The translations under genes were made by a program, and so were the position numbers. Below, piece after piece: positions 9,937 through 21,379 of a DNA stretch of 22,101 bases; within the stretch, counting starts at the first letter, position 1, and every line of letters starts with the position of its first letter. The notes under the pieces were generated by a model. The model made no database searches. It was not told the origin of the DNA and saw nothing but the letters and a program-made list of their open reading frames with translations. Location: positions 1 to 22,101 of the IMG/VR virus record IMGVR_UViG_3300008113_000666. One strand, given 5' to 3'. This stretch comes from a virus.

Positions 9937-12308
<2,372 letters not shown>

Positions 12309-12309
<1 letters not shown>

Positions 12310-18117: not shown

Positions 18118-18153
18118 TCCCGAGTTTGGCGCCGTTTTACTCCCGAGTTTGGC
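18118..18153. repeat. 13-bp direct repeat at the 3' end of a tRNA
   Basis: TCCCGAGTTTGGC occurs at 18118-18130 and again at 18141-18153, 23 bp apart. The second copy covers the CCA end and the next base of the last tRNA of the array; the first copy lies just downstream. This looks like a duplicated tRNA 3' junction, possibly a recombination scar. Confidence 0.55.
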
Positions 18154-18224
18154 AGCCAGGGTAGGAGTCGAACCTACATTCAGGGGCATAAAGCCCGCCA
18201 TTCTACCAGTTGAACTACCTGACT
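18150..18224 (-). tRNA. Abnormal tRNA, anticodon UUA by position
   Basis: The cloverleaf has a 7-bp acceptor (AGTCAGG with CCTGGCT), a D arm GTTC-GAAT, a T arm GTAGG-TTCGACT-CCTAC, discriminator G and an encoded CCA. By standard numbering the anticodon loop is CTTTATG, giving UUA, which would read the ochre codon UAA. The anticodon stem is poor (GCGGG against CCCCT: three GC pairs, a C-C mismatch and G-U), and position 37 is U rather than a purine. It may be a decayed tRNA, a tRNA with an unusual loop fold, or a suppressor. The amino acid is undetermined. Confidence 0.7.
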
Positions 18225-18230
18225 ATATAG

Positions 18231-18303
18231 AGCTTCTGAAAGGAGTCGAACCCTCAACCTACTGAGTACAAATCAGTTGCTCTACCAGTTGAGCTACAGA
18301 AGC
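18231..18303 (-). tRNA. tRNA-Thr (TGT)
   Basis: A perfect 7-bp acceptor (GCTTCTG with CAGAAGC), D arm GCTC-GAGC, anticodon stem ACTGA-TCAGT with loop TTTGTAC, and T arm GAGGG-TTCGACT-CCTTT. The anticodon UGU reads ACA. Discriminator U; CCA is not encoded. Confidence 0.93.
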
Positions 18304-18304
18304 A

Positions 18305-18380
18305 TGGCGCGTCAGGCAGGATTTGAACCTGCAACCCTCGGTTTTGGAGACCGATGCTCTACCAGTTGAGCTACTGACGT
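18305..18380 (-). tRNA. tRNA-Trp (CCA)
   Basis: Anticodon stem TCGGT-ACCGA with loop CTCCAAA gives anticodon CCA, reading UGG. D arm GCTC-GAGC and T arm GCAGG-TTCAAAT-CCTGC are regular. Discriminator G fits Trp and CCA is encoded. The first acceptor pair is an A-C mismatch. One base separates it from tRNA-Thr. Confidence 0.92.
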
Positions 18381-18385
18381 GTTTT

Positions 18386-18412
18386 CTTGCGATCACAGAT
18401 TGTGATTCCAAG
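18386..18412. repeat. Inverted repeat filling the Trp-Ile tRNA spacer
   Basis: CTTG and ATCACA (18386-18397) pair with TGTGAT and CAAG (18401-18412) around a GAT loop, leaving a 2x2 internal mismatch. It occupies nearly the whole 34-base spacer and could form a processing hairpin in the precursor RNA. Confidence 0.5.
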
Positions 18413-18414
18413 AG

Positions 18415-18488
18415 TAGGGGCGACAGGACTTGAACCTGTGACCTTGATGATATAAGCATCCTGCTCTAACCAACTGAGCTACGCCCCC
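18415..18488 (-). tRNA. tRNA-Ile (TAT)
   Basis: Acceptor GGGGGCG-CGCCCCT, D arm GCTC-GAGC, anticodon stem GGATG-CATCA (ending in a G-A opposition) with loop CTTATAT, T arm ACAGG-TTCAAGT-CCTGT, discriminator A. The anticodon UAU reads AUA, a codon used often by the genes here. CCA is not encoded. Confidence 0.92.
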
Positions 18489-18496
18489 AGTTAATC

Positions 18497-18520
18497 GCAC
18501 CTGTTTAATCGTAGAGGTGC
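18497..18520. repeat. Inverted repeat in the Ile-Arg tRNA spacer
   Basis: GCACCT (18497-18502) and AGGTGC (18515-18520) form a perfect 6-bp stem with a 12-nt loop. A wider pair, TTAATCGC (18491-18498) and GCGATTAA (18633-18640), flanks tRNA-Arg in inverted orientation. Confidence 0.45.
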
Positions 18521-18556
18521 AGAACGCGAAATAAAGACCAGCACGTCAAAGAATTG

Positions 18557-18630
18557 TACGCCCGACAGGATTCGAACCTGTGACCCACAGCTTAGAAGGC
18601 TGTTGCTCTATCCAGCTGAGCTACGGGCGC
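18557..18630 (-). tRNA. tRNA-Arg (TCT)
   Basis: Acceptor GCGCCCG-CGGGCGT, D arm GCTC-GAGC, anticodon stem ACAGC-GCTGT with loop CTTCTAA, T arm ACAGG-TTCGAAT-CCTGT, discriminator A. The anticodon UCU reads AGA. CCA is not encoded. Confidence 0.94.
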
Positions 18631-18660
18631 AGGCGATTAAAAGTACAAGTGGTACCAAGC

Positions 18661-18684
18661 CTGGTTGCCAATGCGGTCAACCAG
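18661..18684. repeat. Inverted repeat in the 100-base tRNA spacer
   Basis: CTGGTTG (18661-18667) pairs perfectly with CAACCAG (18678-18684) around a 10-nt loop. It is the only structure seen in the spacer 18631-18730, which has no gene. Confidence 0.45.
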
Positions 18685-18730
18685 CAGCTGGAAATAAAGG
18701 TGAAGAATCATGTCAATTAAATTGGTGTAG

Positions 18731-18797
18731 CGCCCTGTGCAGGAATCGAACCTGCCGCGTCCGATTATTAGTCGGGGCTCCCGTGAGCTTACAGGGC
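18731..18797 (-). tRNA. Abnormal tRNA-like gene with a very short D loop
   Basis: A perfect acceptor (GCCCTGT with ACAGGGC) and a regular T arm (GCAGG-TTCGATT-CCTGC) identify the gene, with G as discriminator and no encoded CCA. The D arm is GCTC-ACGG-GAGC, with only 4 loop bases against the usual 7 to 11. The anticodon stem CCGA-TCGG has 4 pairs, and loop CTAATAA gives AAU by position, an unusual Ile anticodon. At 67 nt it is short. It may be decayed or folded atypically. It is the first member of the array, 9 bases after the stop codon of the membrane-protein gene. Confidence 0.7.
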
Positions 18798-19109: not shown

Positions 19110-19139
19110 CAAATCTACGGACAAATGCTGATATGTCAA
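19110..19139 (-). promoter_or_regulatory. Full Bacteroidota-type promoter (-33 TTG, -7 TAGATTTG)
   Basis: On the minus strand TTG (19139-19137) and TAGATTTG (19117-19110) are separated by exactly 19 bp, the spacing expected for the Bacteroidota housekeeping sigma factor. The start point should be near 19106, giving a leader of about 22 nt to the ATG at 19084. The -33 part overlaps the stop region of the MazG-like gene. It likely drives the membrane-protein gene and the tRNA array. Confidence 0.7.
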
Positions 19140-19516
19140 GAATTTTTTATGAACACACCGTTTTCCGTGCGCCCAGTCCTGTTCTTGATAGTATCATATG
19201 CAACGCCGAGGGCATAGTCTGGATCTATGCTCATCTGCTTAGCAAGGATGATTAACGTTACAAAACTATCTCCTATAGCGTCTACGAGATCGTCTCTATT
19301 GCCCTTGGCTAGAGCGCCAGCTACCTCCCCAACCTCCTCGACGACCTTAAGCATTTGTCTAGTTGAGTTATGCTCCAGTAAAAGGCCCTTATTATGAGCC
19401 CAATCGCCAACAAGTTCAACAAGTTCATCGAACGTTCTCTTTTTGTTTACGACAACGCTAGCTTCTACTCCGTAGAACGCTTCACTTTGAAAATTTTTCT
19501 GCAAATCCTCCTGCAT
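19136..19516 (-). CDS. MazG-like nucleotide pyrophosphohydrolase
   Basis: From the ATG at 19516 the product has 126 residues; the frame is open to a TTG at 19534, but ATG is preferred. The MazG-type metal site is visible: KVVEEVGEVAG (Glu-Glu-x-x-Glu, residues about 60-64 in this numbering) and RDDLVDAIGDSFVTL, whose acidic residues spaced 3 and 4 complete an all-alpha NTP pyrophosphohydrolase. WAHNKGLL before the first motif also fits. Such phage enzymes hydrolyse (d)NTPs or alarmones to monophosphates and may pair with ThyX in nucleotide control. The start overlaps the upstream gene by 35 nt. Confidence 0.88.
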   Translation of the reverse strand: MQEDLQKNFQSEAFYGVEASVVVNKKRTFDELVELVGDWAHNKGLLLEHNSTRQMLKVVEEVGEVAGALAKGNRDDLVDAIGDSFVTLIILAKQMSIDPDYALGVAYDTIKNRTGRTENGVFIKNS

Positions 19517-19775
19517 AATCTTTATTTGATTCAATTTGGGTTCCTGAATTCAACTCGTCTACCAGCTCTTGTAGCCTCTGGCGCTCGACTATAAGCTCTT
19601 TGCAGTCTATAGCCGTCTGCTTTATGGACTGAAGCTCTGCTTTTCTAGCGCTACCGCCAGCTTCGGGGTCTACAGGCTTCTTTATCTCCTCTATCATATT
19701 GTTAATAGCCTGAGACATCGCGTCCATAAGGCGCTTAGCCGCATCAGCGTTAGAGAACTCAATTATTTTCGACAT
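19482..19775 (-). CDS. Hypothetical helical protein
   Basis: The product from the ATG at 19775 has 97 residues (MSKIIEFSNADAAKRLMDAM); an upstream TTG at 19787 is less likely. It is almost wholly helical, with heptad-like spacing in MIEEIKKPVD and in ELIVERQRLQELVDELN, and has no membrane helix or known catalytic motif. It overlaps the GroES-like gene by 17 nt and MazG by 35 nt, showing tight coupling. Function unknown. Confidence 0.75.
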   Translation of the reverse strand: MSKIIEFSNADAAKRLMDAMSQAINNMIEEIKKPVDPEAGGSARKAELQSIKQTAIDCKELIVERQRLQELVDELNSGTQIESNKDYAGGFAEKFSK

Positions 19776-20343
19776 ATAATAGGTCAATTAGCCTTATTCT
19801 CAAGTAAACTTCTCCGTCTATCTTAAATCTGTATCCAAATTTATGATTGAAACCGACCACATCGCCTACCTTAAGGTTAATCTCTTTCAAACTATCTGAA
19901 TGATAGGCCACCCTTCCCTTTGCTATTGGATCCTCTTGAAGCTTAATGACCTCTATTATCTCTGATTCTTTCTTTTTTTCTTCTTTTACTGGCTCTAAAA
20001 CTATCCAGCCTCCAAGGGGTATAATGTTTTCAGATCCTTTTGGCCTATAAGCTATAGCTTGATTATCCATAGCTTCCTCTGAGTAGTTGACTAGATAAGA
20101 GTTTTCTTCTCCAGTAATTGGCTGACCGTCATTTACCACAACGTGATGATGAAAGTAAAGCGTGTCTCCTGGTTTAGCTCCAGTGTCAAACTTACATGGA
20201 GCGCTTACTATTTCAGCTTCATTAACTCTGTTCTCAAACTCATTGTACTTGGGATCAACATAAAGCTTTAGTCCGTTTGAAAGTTCTACGGTGTCGTTAA
20301 ACCGCTTATTCATCTTTACGATGAAGCAAGAAAGGGATCTCAT
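19759..20343 (-). CDS. GroES-like co-chaperonin with two GroES-type halves
   Basis: The 194-residue product resembles GroES in its C-terminal half. IPLGGWIVLEPVKEE (108-122) matches the PL..RVLVKP opening, and EKKKESEIIEVIKLQED is a charged loop with a short hydrophobic patch where GroES has its mobile loop. GRVAYHSDS, LKVGDVVGFNHKFG (157-170) and FKIDGEVYLRIRLIDLLYV (173-191) match the closing strands. The N-terminal half (about 20-100) looks like a second, diverged copy: NGLKLYVDP, AEIVSAP, then AKPGDTLYFHHHVV. Bacterial GroES is about 95 residues, so a tandem arrangement fits the length. The likely role is folding phage proteins with host GroEL, as T4 gp31 does. The start may instead be Met11 (20313). 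Confidence 0.75.
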   Translation of the reverse strand: MRSLSCFIVKMNKRFNDTVELSNGLKLYVDPKYNEFENRVNEAEIVSAPCKFDTGAKPGDTLYFHHHVVVNDGQPITGEENSYLVNYSEEAMDNQAIAYRPKGSENIIPLGGWIVLEPVKEEKKKESEIIEVIKLQEDPIAKGRVAYHSDSLKEINLKVGDVVGFNHKFGYRFKIDGEVYLRIRLIDLLYVENN

Positions 20344-20344
20344 T

Positions 20345-20584
20345 TTAAAAATTCAGATCATATTCTACGACACATGGCATATTTTCTATTGTCTTCCACA
20401 GAACTTGGGATTCTGGTTCTTGAACGTATATGACGTATTTTGTGACTCCATATAGATCAAAAGACTCTTGGTCAAATAATATAGAACATATAGAACCGTT
20501 GCCTACCTTCATCCCAATAGAGTAAGCCATTCCGTCTGTCTTTGGGTCTCTTCCAGCGACAATTTTTCGGATAAGTCCGTTCAT
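20345..20584 (-). CDS. Hypothetical small protein
   Basis: The 79-residue product (MNGLIRKIVAGRDPKTDGMA) looks like a small beta domain: short strands around IVAGRD, GMKVGNGSICSILFD and YGVTKYVIYVQE, then WKTIENMPCVVEYDL. No motif identifies it. It starts at a TGATG overlap with the 65-residue gene and ends 1 nt before the GroES-like start, so it is translated with both. Function unknown. Confidence 0.78.
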   Translation of the reverse strand: MNGLIRKIVAGRDPKTDGMAYSIGMKVGNGSICSILFDQESFDLYGVTKYVIYVQEPESQVLWKTIENMPCVVEYDLNF

Positions 20585-20781
20585 CAGTTCAAGCTTGAGT
20601 CGGAATTAAAGATACCTCTAAGTTTATCATTTCCAGTCATAGCAGAGTATGCTTTCTGCATCATTATGGATACGGCTTGAAGTTCAACTTCGTCCTGGAC
20701 TGAGAAGTGATATGAAGCGCCAACGCTTACATCGTCGTCATTCTTGATCTCTGTGAAAAATTCGTCTTGATTCTTATTCAT
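20584..20781 (-). CDS. Hypothetical small acidic protein
   Basis: The 65-residue product starts MNKNQDEFFTEIKNDDDVSV and continues with a helix (VQDEVELQAVSIMMQKAYSAM). It is the first gene of the minus-strand block, about 11 nt behind the start point expected from the TATCTTTG box. It has no membrane helix or DNA-binding motif. Function unknown. Confidence 0.72.
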   Translation of the reverse strand: MNKNQDEFFTEIKNDDDVSVGASYHFSVQDEVELQAVSIMMQKAYSAMTGNDKLRGIFNSDSSLN

Positions 20782-20785
20782 GGCT

Positions 20786-20793
20786 TAAATTTG
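20786..20793 (+). promoter_or_regulatory. -7 box for the plus-strand gene (TAAATTTG)
   Basis: TAAATTTG matches TAnnTTTG and lies 18 bp before the ATG at 20812; transcription should start near 20797, inside the opposing box. TTG is present at 20767-20769 but at 16 rather than 19 bp spacing. Confidence 0.55.
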
Positions 20794-20795
20794 GT

Positions 20796-20803
20796 CAAAG
20801 ATA
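20796..20803 (-). promoter_or_regulatory. -7 box for the minus-strand block (TATCTTTG)
   Basis: On the minus strand, 20803-20796 is TATCTTTG, a TAnnTTTG match. Transcription should start near 20792, giving an 11-nt leader to the ATG at 20781. The TTTG cores of the two boxes form the inverted repeat TTTG-GT-CAAA at 20790-20799. Confidence 0.55.
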
Positions 20804-20811
20804 ACTTCATT

Positions 20812-21231
20812 ATGCCTAAGTCCAGAGTCACAAAGAAAAGGATGTTCAGAGATTTTTCTCATATGAAGCCCTACTTCATAGGCAAGAATCACATGAAAAG
20901 GCTGAAGCAAAATAGGATAAAGTTCCTAGAGTCTTCAGACATATCTCAGAGTGAGCTGGAGTTTCTTTTGTGGGCTTATGACTTAGAATTTTTTACTTTA
21001 AAATTTGCTAGTGAGGACTATGAGATGAACCAATCTAACCTATCGAACAGACTGGTATATCCCCTTATGAACTCTGGTTATATATACAAGCATTTCGACA
21101 AGCTTACGTCTTCTAAACTATATGAAGATCAACTGTTCAGAGGCGAGACCAAGTTTAACTACAGGGTTAGGTATGCTATCACTCAGAAGGCTAGACTCGC
21201 TGTGCAGCGTTTCTACAGCCTCTTCGAATAA
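20812..21231 (+). CDS. Winged-helix-like protein, possible transcription regulator
   Basis: This is the only plus-strand gene. From the ATG at 20812 the product has 139 residues; the longer frame from a TTG at 20767 would begin upstream of the promoter box. A basic N-terminus (MPKSRVTKKRMFRDF) precedes a MarR-like winged-helix pattern: ISQSELEFLLWAYDLEFFTL helices, a possible recognition helix in MNQSNLSNRLVYPLMNSGYI, then a wing and final helix with YAITQKARLAVQRFYSLF. It is divergent from the minus-strand block with overlapping core promoters, so repression or autoregulation there is a natural guess. A structural wHTH role without regulation is possible. Confidence 0.75.
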   Translation: MPKSRVTKKRMFRDFSHMKPYFIGKNHMKRLKQNRIKFLESSDISQSELEFLLWAYDLEFFTLKFASEDYEMNQSNLSNRLVYPLMNSGYIYKHFDKLTSSKLYEDQLFRGETKFNYRVRYAITQKARLAVQRFYSLFE

Positions 21232-21235
21232 TAGG

Positions 21236-21379
21236 TTATCTTCCTTGGCCCCCGTAGGCCTTCTCGTAGGTTGAAGAGTTCTTGTTGGTAGATTTTCTCT
21301 TCGCGTGCCTTCCGTGGTTCTTCTTTGGGTTAAGCACCATCTTTGCCTCTGCCCTAGATCCTGATTTTGCCTTTGCCAT
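21236..21379 (-). CDS. Very small basic protein (47 aa)
   Basis: The frame starts at an ATG overlapping the stop of the M15 peptidase gene (TAATG) and ends at TAA 21238-21236, 4 bases from the convergent plus-strand gene. The product (MAKAKSGSRAEAKMVLNPKK, then NHGRHAKRKS and a Tyr/Gly-rich end) is extremely rich in Lys, Arg and Ala, suggesting a nucleic-acid or acidic-protein partner. It resembles in style, though not clearly in sequence, the basic protein at 4686-4973. Function unknown. Confidence 0.65.
   Translation of the reverse strand: MAKAKSGSRAEAKMVLNPKKNHGRHAKRKSTNKNSSTYEKAYGGQGR

Follow-up and report, generated by a model that had tools for sequence, protein, structure and literature searches.

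A probable compact divergent promoter built from two facing Bacteroidetes-type −7 boxes beside a MarR-like gene in uncultured marine phages

Divergent and bidirectional promoters are already known as a kind. At regulator-operon pairs such as Escherichia coli bioA/bioBFCD and Tn10 tetR/tetA, the divergent promoters overlap or stand face to face. Divergently placed regulators of the MarR type usually adjust the ratio between their own promoter and that of their target. In the E. coli bidirectional promoters studied by Warman, Grainger, and colleagues, opposite-strand starts share one pseudo-symmetric −10 element and are typically 18, 10, or 23 bp apart, and one polymerase binds at a time (PMC12825309). 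Such promoters have been studied mainly with sigma-70 elements, and the regulation of Bacteroidetes phages has been only poorly mapped. In Flavobacterium, the −7 box spans −12 to −5, ending 4–5 nt ahead of the transcription start (PMC6847099, PMC9723704). Here we describe a phage site at which two such boxes face each other between divergent genes.

Geometry of the site and its recurrence among relatives

The window, i.e., the whole stretch of 22,101 nucleotides that was analysed, is part of an uncultured virus record of 46,302 bp. In this record, the structural and terminase genes are oriented leftward, and those between ~25 and 41.8 kb point rightward. The terminase shares 43–47% identity with those of an uncultured podovirus and of Elemovirus and is more distantly related to those of Cellulophaga phages and others of aquatic Flavobacteriia. 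The phage family consists of marine viruses of Flavobacteria-type bacteria. In the window, the tail region encodes a 790-aa protein with collagen-like GPQGPQG repeats (9937–12309), and six tRNA genes, three of them tRNA-Ile, lie on the minus strand at 18150–18797.

The sequence at 20780–20815 was read from the window as atggctTAAATTTGgtCAAAGATAacttcattatg. Within it, divergent ATG codons at 20781 (minus strand) and 20812 (plus strand) flank two −7 boxes, the coordinates of which are given in Table 1. On the plus strand, the letters of the leftward box are CAAAGATA, corresponding to TATCTTTG on the minus strand. The original prediction had placed two facing −7 boxes here, 2 bp apart around a TTTG-GT-CAAA centre, and its bases at 20786–20803 were exact. 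Because the Flavobacterium box occupies −12 to −5, transcription would be expected to start at ~20798 on the plus strand and ~20791 on the minus strand, giving predicted leaders of ~14 nt rightward and ~10 nt leftward.

Table 1. Features of the divergent site and of the adjoining genes in the window
Feature	Position	Strand	Remark
Rightward −7 box TAAATTTG	20786..20793	+	Predicted promoter of the 139-aa MarR-like gene; conserved in relatives
Spacer GT between the facing boxes	20794..20795		2 bp; 2–8 bp among exact pairs of relatives
Leftward −7 box TATCTTTG	20803-20796 (20796..20803)	−	Predicted promoter of the leftward operon, beginning with the 65-aa gene; preferred form
Predicted rightward start point (+1)	20798 or 20799	+	Placed by the Flavobacterium box-to-start rule
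Predicted leftward start point (+1)	20791 or 20790	−	Placed by the Flavobacterium box-to-start rule
139-aa MarR-like winged-helix protein (predicted fold)	20812..21231	+	Lone rightward gene in a leftward block
Divergent partner gene	20584..20781	−	65 aa here, about 100 aa in relatives; shortened in the window
79-aa protein, function unassigned	20345..20584	−	Next gene of the leftward operon
GroES-like co-chaperonin	19759..20343	−	Leftward operon; phrog_13932 E 8.4e-42, Cpn10 E 9.5e-07
MazG-like pyrophosphohydrolase	19136..19534	−	Leftward operon

Homologues of the plus-strand gene were gathered in a first set (124 sequences, 59 clusters at 93% identity) and an enlarged set (284 sequences, 95 clusters). 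Two exact facing boxes were found in 31/59 clusters of the first set, and eight more had a pair in which one box carried one mismatch. In the enlarged set, 44 of the 95 clusters showed an exact facing pair and 10 more a near pair (one box with one mismatch); the others, apart from one (locus L067), had the plus box alone (16), the minus box alone (6), or no box (18). A search for the paired boxes in related phages, which had been proposed with the original prediction, thus had a positive outcome in both sets. These results indicate that roughly half of the examined viral lineages share the arrangement and that the pair is not essential, since 40/95 clusters have one box (22) or none (18).

The boxes of exact pairs were separated by 2, 3, 5, 6, 7, or 8 bp; this series leaves out an alternative match in locus L067, where an exact pair at gap 11 occurs beside a near pair at gap 3. 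With +1 set 5 nt beyond the G of each box, the predicted starts of exact pairs are 1–7 bp apart (9 minus the gap) and never cross. In the window, the predicted plus start falls within the minus box and the predicted minus start within the plus box, as had been proposed. This holds for gaps of up to 4 bp; at gaps of 5–8 bp, which account for 40/44 exact pairs, the starts fall in the spacer, and the placement of each start inside the other box is not a conserved feature.

Clade alignments were built independently of the motif. In the window's clade, the boxes were fixed while the flanks and the 2-bp spacer changed (GT, TA, TC), and the sole change within a box sat at an N position. In the gap-7 clade, the conserved columns were the boxes, and flanks and spacers varied. 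The box states were strongly clustered on the protein tree (10 changes versus 26 in shuffles); therefore, the independent cases are far fewer than the clusters. In a Bacteroidetes metagenome-assembled genome (MAG), the gap-2 pattern was found in one place only, around which no divergent ORF pair was called. A contig locus of the same MAG encodes a 38% homologue, and its spacer, TATTTTTA-T-CAAAAATA, is a pair with one mismatch. No annotated phage record among those searched encodes the 139-aa protein, and in Elemovirus and MW202828, which represent neighbouring groups with records, no opposite-strand gene was present between endolysin and terminase.

We also compared the boxes with chance expectation. 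Single TAnnTTTG matches in the window were barely more frequent than in shuffled sequence (27 versus 19.1 ± 4.8, with 6/100 shuffles reaching 27), which is the count that would speak for a chance hit to a loose 6-base motif. By contrast, the 46,302-bp record contains two facing pairs with gaps of 0–10, whereas 200 shuffles averaged 0.06 and never yielded two, and the same place was kept in the 44 clusters with exact pairs. The loci of the first set (59 clusters), 594 kb in all, had only six exact facing pairs away from this site. Conservation at one site across clusters is the decisive support for the reality of the pair, and the chance reading, already refuted by it, retains a negligible probability.

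Two further facing pairs were seen. One, TAAGTTTG/TAAGTTTG with a gap of 9, lies within coding sequence at 10288–10312 of the window and is probably due to chance. The other recurs in L143, L154, and L129, in each case ~486 bp upstream of where the MarR-like gene begins.

Strand specificity and inequality of the boxes

Both boxes fit the Bacteroidetes sigma-A −7 sequence TAnnTTTG (TAHHTTTG). We counted this motif in the 60 bp before the ATG at other starts of these phages that have a free leader. Among 378 such leaders, taken from a simple ORF caller and from loci that are not all independent, TAnnTTTG occurred 130 times in the sense and 4 times in the antisense orientation. The motif thus marks gene starts strand-specifically in these phages, and leaders other than those of the divergent site only exceptionally contain an antisense box. 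Judged by their sequence, the two boxes behave as Bacteroidetes sigma-A −7 elements. Neither the site nor the other starts of the phages showed a conserved TTG/TTTG corresponding to a −33 element. This is no objection, because the −33 element is weak in Flavobacterium also, its motif being much less evident in F. johnsoniae (PMC6847099).

Each box also sits within the leader of the opposite gene, and A's ahead of the start codon aid translation in Flavobacterium (PMC6847099). The A-rich stretches might accordingly be translation leaders with Kozak-like A's and not antisense promoter boxes. However, the antisense form, CAAAnnTA, accounts for just the four cases counted above against 130 sense boxes, which largely refutes this explanation and leaves it extremely improbable.

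Two other patterns were noted at gene starts. Of the 130 sense boxes, 42 begin exactly 12 bp before the ATG, a position that would place the transcript start on the A of the ATG; they occur in related loci and, outside the window, on the minus strand at 24413 and 24734 of G000. These phages may thus have many leaderless mRNAs, though the presumed hosts rarely use such transcripts (5.5% in F. psychrophilum; PMC9723704). In addition, a block, GGCACTYSTAGTTTTACTATATTTGCA, is conserved before the gene that follows the terminase (the portal position) in many relatives (L094:4142, L110:12166, L095:5734, and others); it could serve an activator as a phage-specific promoter element.

The two boxes of the divergent site differ in form. 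At other starts, 117/130 boxes have the preferred form TAT[ACT]TTTG. In exact pairs, the leftward box was TATATTTG or TATCTTTG (NN = TA/TC) in 40/44 cases, whereas the rightward box was TAAATTTG (NN = AA) in 34/44 and had T at −10 in none. The rightward box of the window likewise departs from the preferred form, with A at −10. Across the 95 clusters, the leftward box was in the preferred form in 48 and the rightward box in 22, both were so in none, and 40 clusters combined a plus box off the preferred form with a strong minus box. These raw counts are striking, and they correspond to few independent changes on the tree (5 and 3), so few that a test cannot reach significance. They suggest that the leftward, operon-side box is usually the strong one, and we read the site as a lopsided pair with one direction as its default.

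The inverted symmetry of TTTG-N-CAAA, next to a gene for a predicted winged-helix protein, could also be taken as an operator for a dimer of that protein in place of two promoter elements. Some clades carry extra inverted repeats, e.g., GTATCT-CAA-AGATAC, which might be counted in its favour, but these are only marginally above shuffles and are absent from the window. In the window, no operator palindrome was found at the site; outside the box pair, the arms are only 2 bp. A shared dimer operator built from the two boxes is unlikely because clades differ in half-site spacing by as much as 6 bp, roughly half a turn of the helix, and because the arms differ at the N positions (AA versus TA/TC). 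On these two grounds, we rejected the operator as the main explanation. Moreover, the boxes match, strand-specifically, the promoter element at other starts, and clades with a single box exist. Overall, we consider this explanation very unlikely.

Flanking genes and proposed working of the site

The plus-strand product had been predicted to be a winged-helix protein. The AlphaFold model of the 139-aa protein (pLDDT 81.7) bore this out: its Foldseek matches in the PDB were MarR proteins, the best being Staphylococcus aureus MepR (probability 1.00, TM ~0.6), so that a MarR-type winged-helix fold is predicted. At the sequence level, the protein had no family match above cut-offs, none of the 58 members of its family matched the MarR Pfam models, and no usable hit came from a profile search against PDB sequences and Pfam. 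Its start, MPKS at 20812, is conserved across homologues, which rules out an upstream TTG start of the same ORF at 20767.

The site had been proposed to lie between this gene and a GroES-like/MazG block. The genes are indeed divergent. A small partner gene adjoins the site on the leftward side and is followed, further down the leftward operon, by the GroES-like and MazG genes. The partner gene stands beside the MarR-like gene in the clusters checked. Its product is predicted to fold as alpha-beta-beta-alpha and gave no structural match. Compared with the near-identical relatives L012 and L002, the partner gene of the window lacks 34 codons in frame, a loss that is not shared by its nearest relatives and is either a real deletion or an assembly fault.

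On its other side, the MarR-like gene meets a convergent gene in 84/86 clusters, with a median stop overlap of 4 bp, which leaves no room for a terminator. In nearly all relatives, the stop of this lone opposite-strand gene (20812–21379 in the window) overlaps or abuts the convergent neighbour, and a terminator scan of the window detected no leftward terminator there. A distant rightward promoter for the MarR-like gene is unlikely because the likely genes between 1 and 20.8 kb are oriented leftward.

Our favoured reading, in which we have reasonable though not strong confidence, is that the site works as a compact divergent promoter whose leftward element is strong and whose rightward element is weak, and that the MarR-like product probably tunes it. 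Only a few base pairs separate the two facing Bacteroidetes sigma-A −7 elements, and host RNA polymerase on one would cover the other. The leftward element, in the form of most other starts, would drive the partner gene and the GroES-like/MazG operon, and the rightward element, off the preferred form, would drive the MarR-like gene. From the inequality of the elements, default firing would be expected to be mostly leftward, with occasional rightward starts maintaining a low level of MarR-like protein. This protein probably has a binding site close to its own promoter, from which it would adjust the balance between the two directions. Later, leftward readthrough from upstream genes may silence the MarR-like gene by antisense transcription; such a run through the gene and both promoters is possible because no terminator was found in between. 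The original prediction had stated that polymerase can use only one of the promoters at a time. The overlap of the two sites holds by geometry, and from that geometry we infer, on steric grounds, that the two genes could not start at the same moment.

The leading rival accepts the promoter pair but grants it no regulatory role. In a spacer of ~30 bp, two promoters would interlock by default, as weak promoters that neither compete nor form a switch. Phage genomes are compact, the gap varies from 2 to 8 bp between clades, lineages with a single box or none exist, and a short spacer alone could push boxes together without regulatory purpose. In E. coli, the basal activity of five tested bidirectional promoters was likewise too low for competition, which was seen only once the promoters were activated (PMC12825309). 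However, the absence of any cluster with both boxes in the preferred form, the gap limit of ≤8 bp, and the MarR-like product hint at more. We give plain compactness a little under an even chance.

At the other extreme, the site could be a true two-way switch, in which start-site exclusion, binding of the MarR-like protein, and antisense readthrough together commit the phage to either the regulator or the leftward operon. The overlapping polymerase sites, the predicted fold of the regulator, the antisense geometry with its overlapping convergent stops, and the adjoining partner gene would all suit such a switch. On the other hand, the palindrome search yielded no binding site, the boxes differ in form, and some lineages do not have the pair. 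The two-way switch of the original prediction did not find direct support in that form; the boxes are unequal, and 40/95 clusters have one box or none. We regard a regulatory switch at the site as plausible and a full two-way switch as doubtful. A variant in which facing, selectively unequal boxes and antisense readthrough choose between the regulator and the GroES-like/MazG/terminase operon, and in which lineages reversed the polarity by exchanging which box is strong, is improbable when all of its parts are taken together.

Comparison with described promoters

The compact divergent promoter favoured here resembles bioA/bioBFCD and tetR/tetA in that genes are read outwards from overlapping promoters in a short spacer. 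It differs from them in its Bacteroidetes-type elements, its phage module, and the lack of a detected operator. With MarR regulators that are divergent from a target operon, among them the structural neighbour MepR, the locus has in common the predicted winged-helix fold and the divergent gene order, whereas the 139-aa protein matches no Pfam MarR model and no palindromic operator was found.

As in the E. coli bidirectional promoters (PMC12825309), starts on opposite strands are predicted within a few base pairs of each other. In place of one shared element, the phage boxes are separate and non-overlapping with gaps of 2–8 bp, the predicted starts are closer together (1–7 bp), and exclusion at the phage site is deduced from footprint overlap. 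Across the lineages, the same homologous gene pair comes with gaps of 2, 3, 5, 6, 7, and 8 bp and with single-box controls, a natural series in which the influence of spacing and box strength on the ratio of opposed transcripts can be tested directly.

Ordinary Bacteroidetes sigma-A promoters (TTTG/TAnnTTTG; PMC6847099, PMC9723704) have the same −7 element, likewise without a strong −33 element, but at the phage site two of these elements stand face to face within 18 bp. As far as a non-exhaustive literature search shows, what is new is the combination of facing, non-overlapping Bacteroidetes −7 boxes, with starts predicted 1–7 bp apart, and its conservation next to a MarR-like gene within a phage family.
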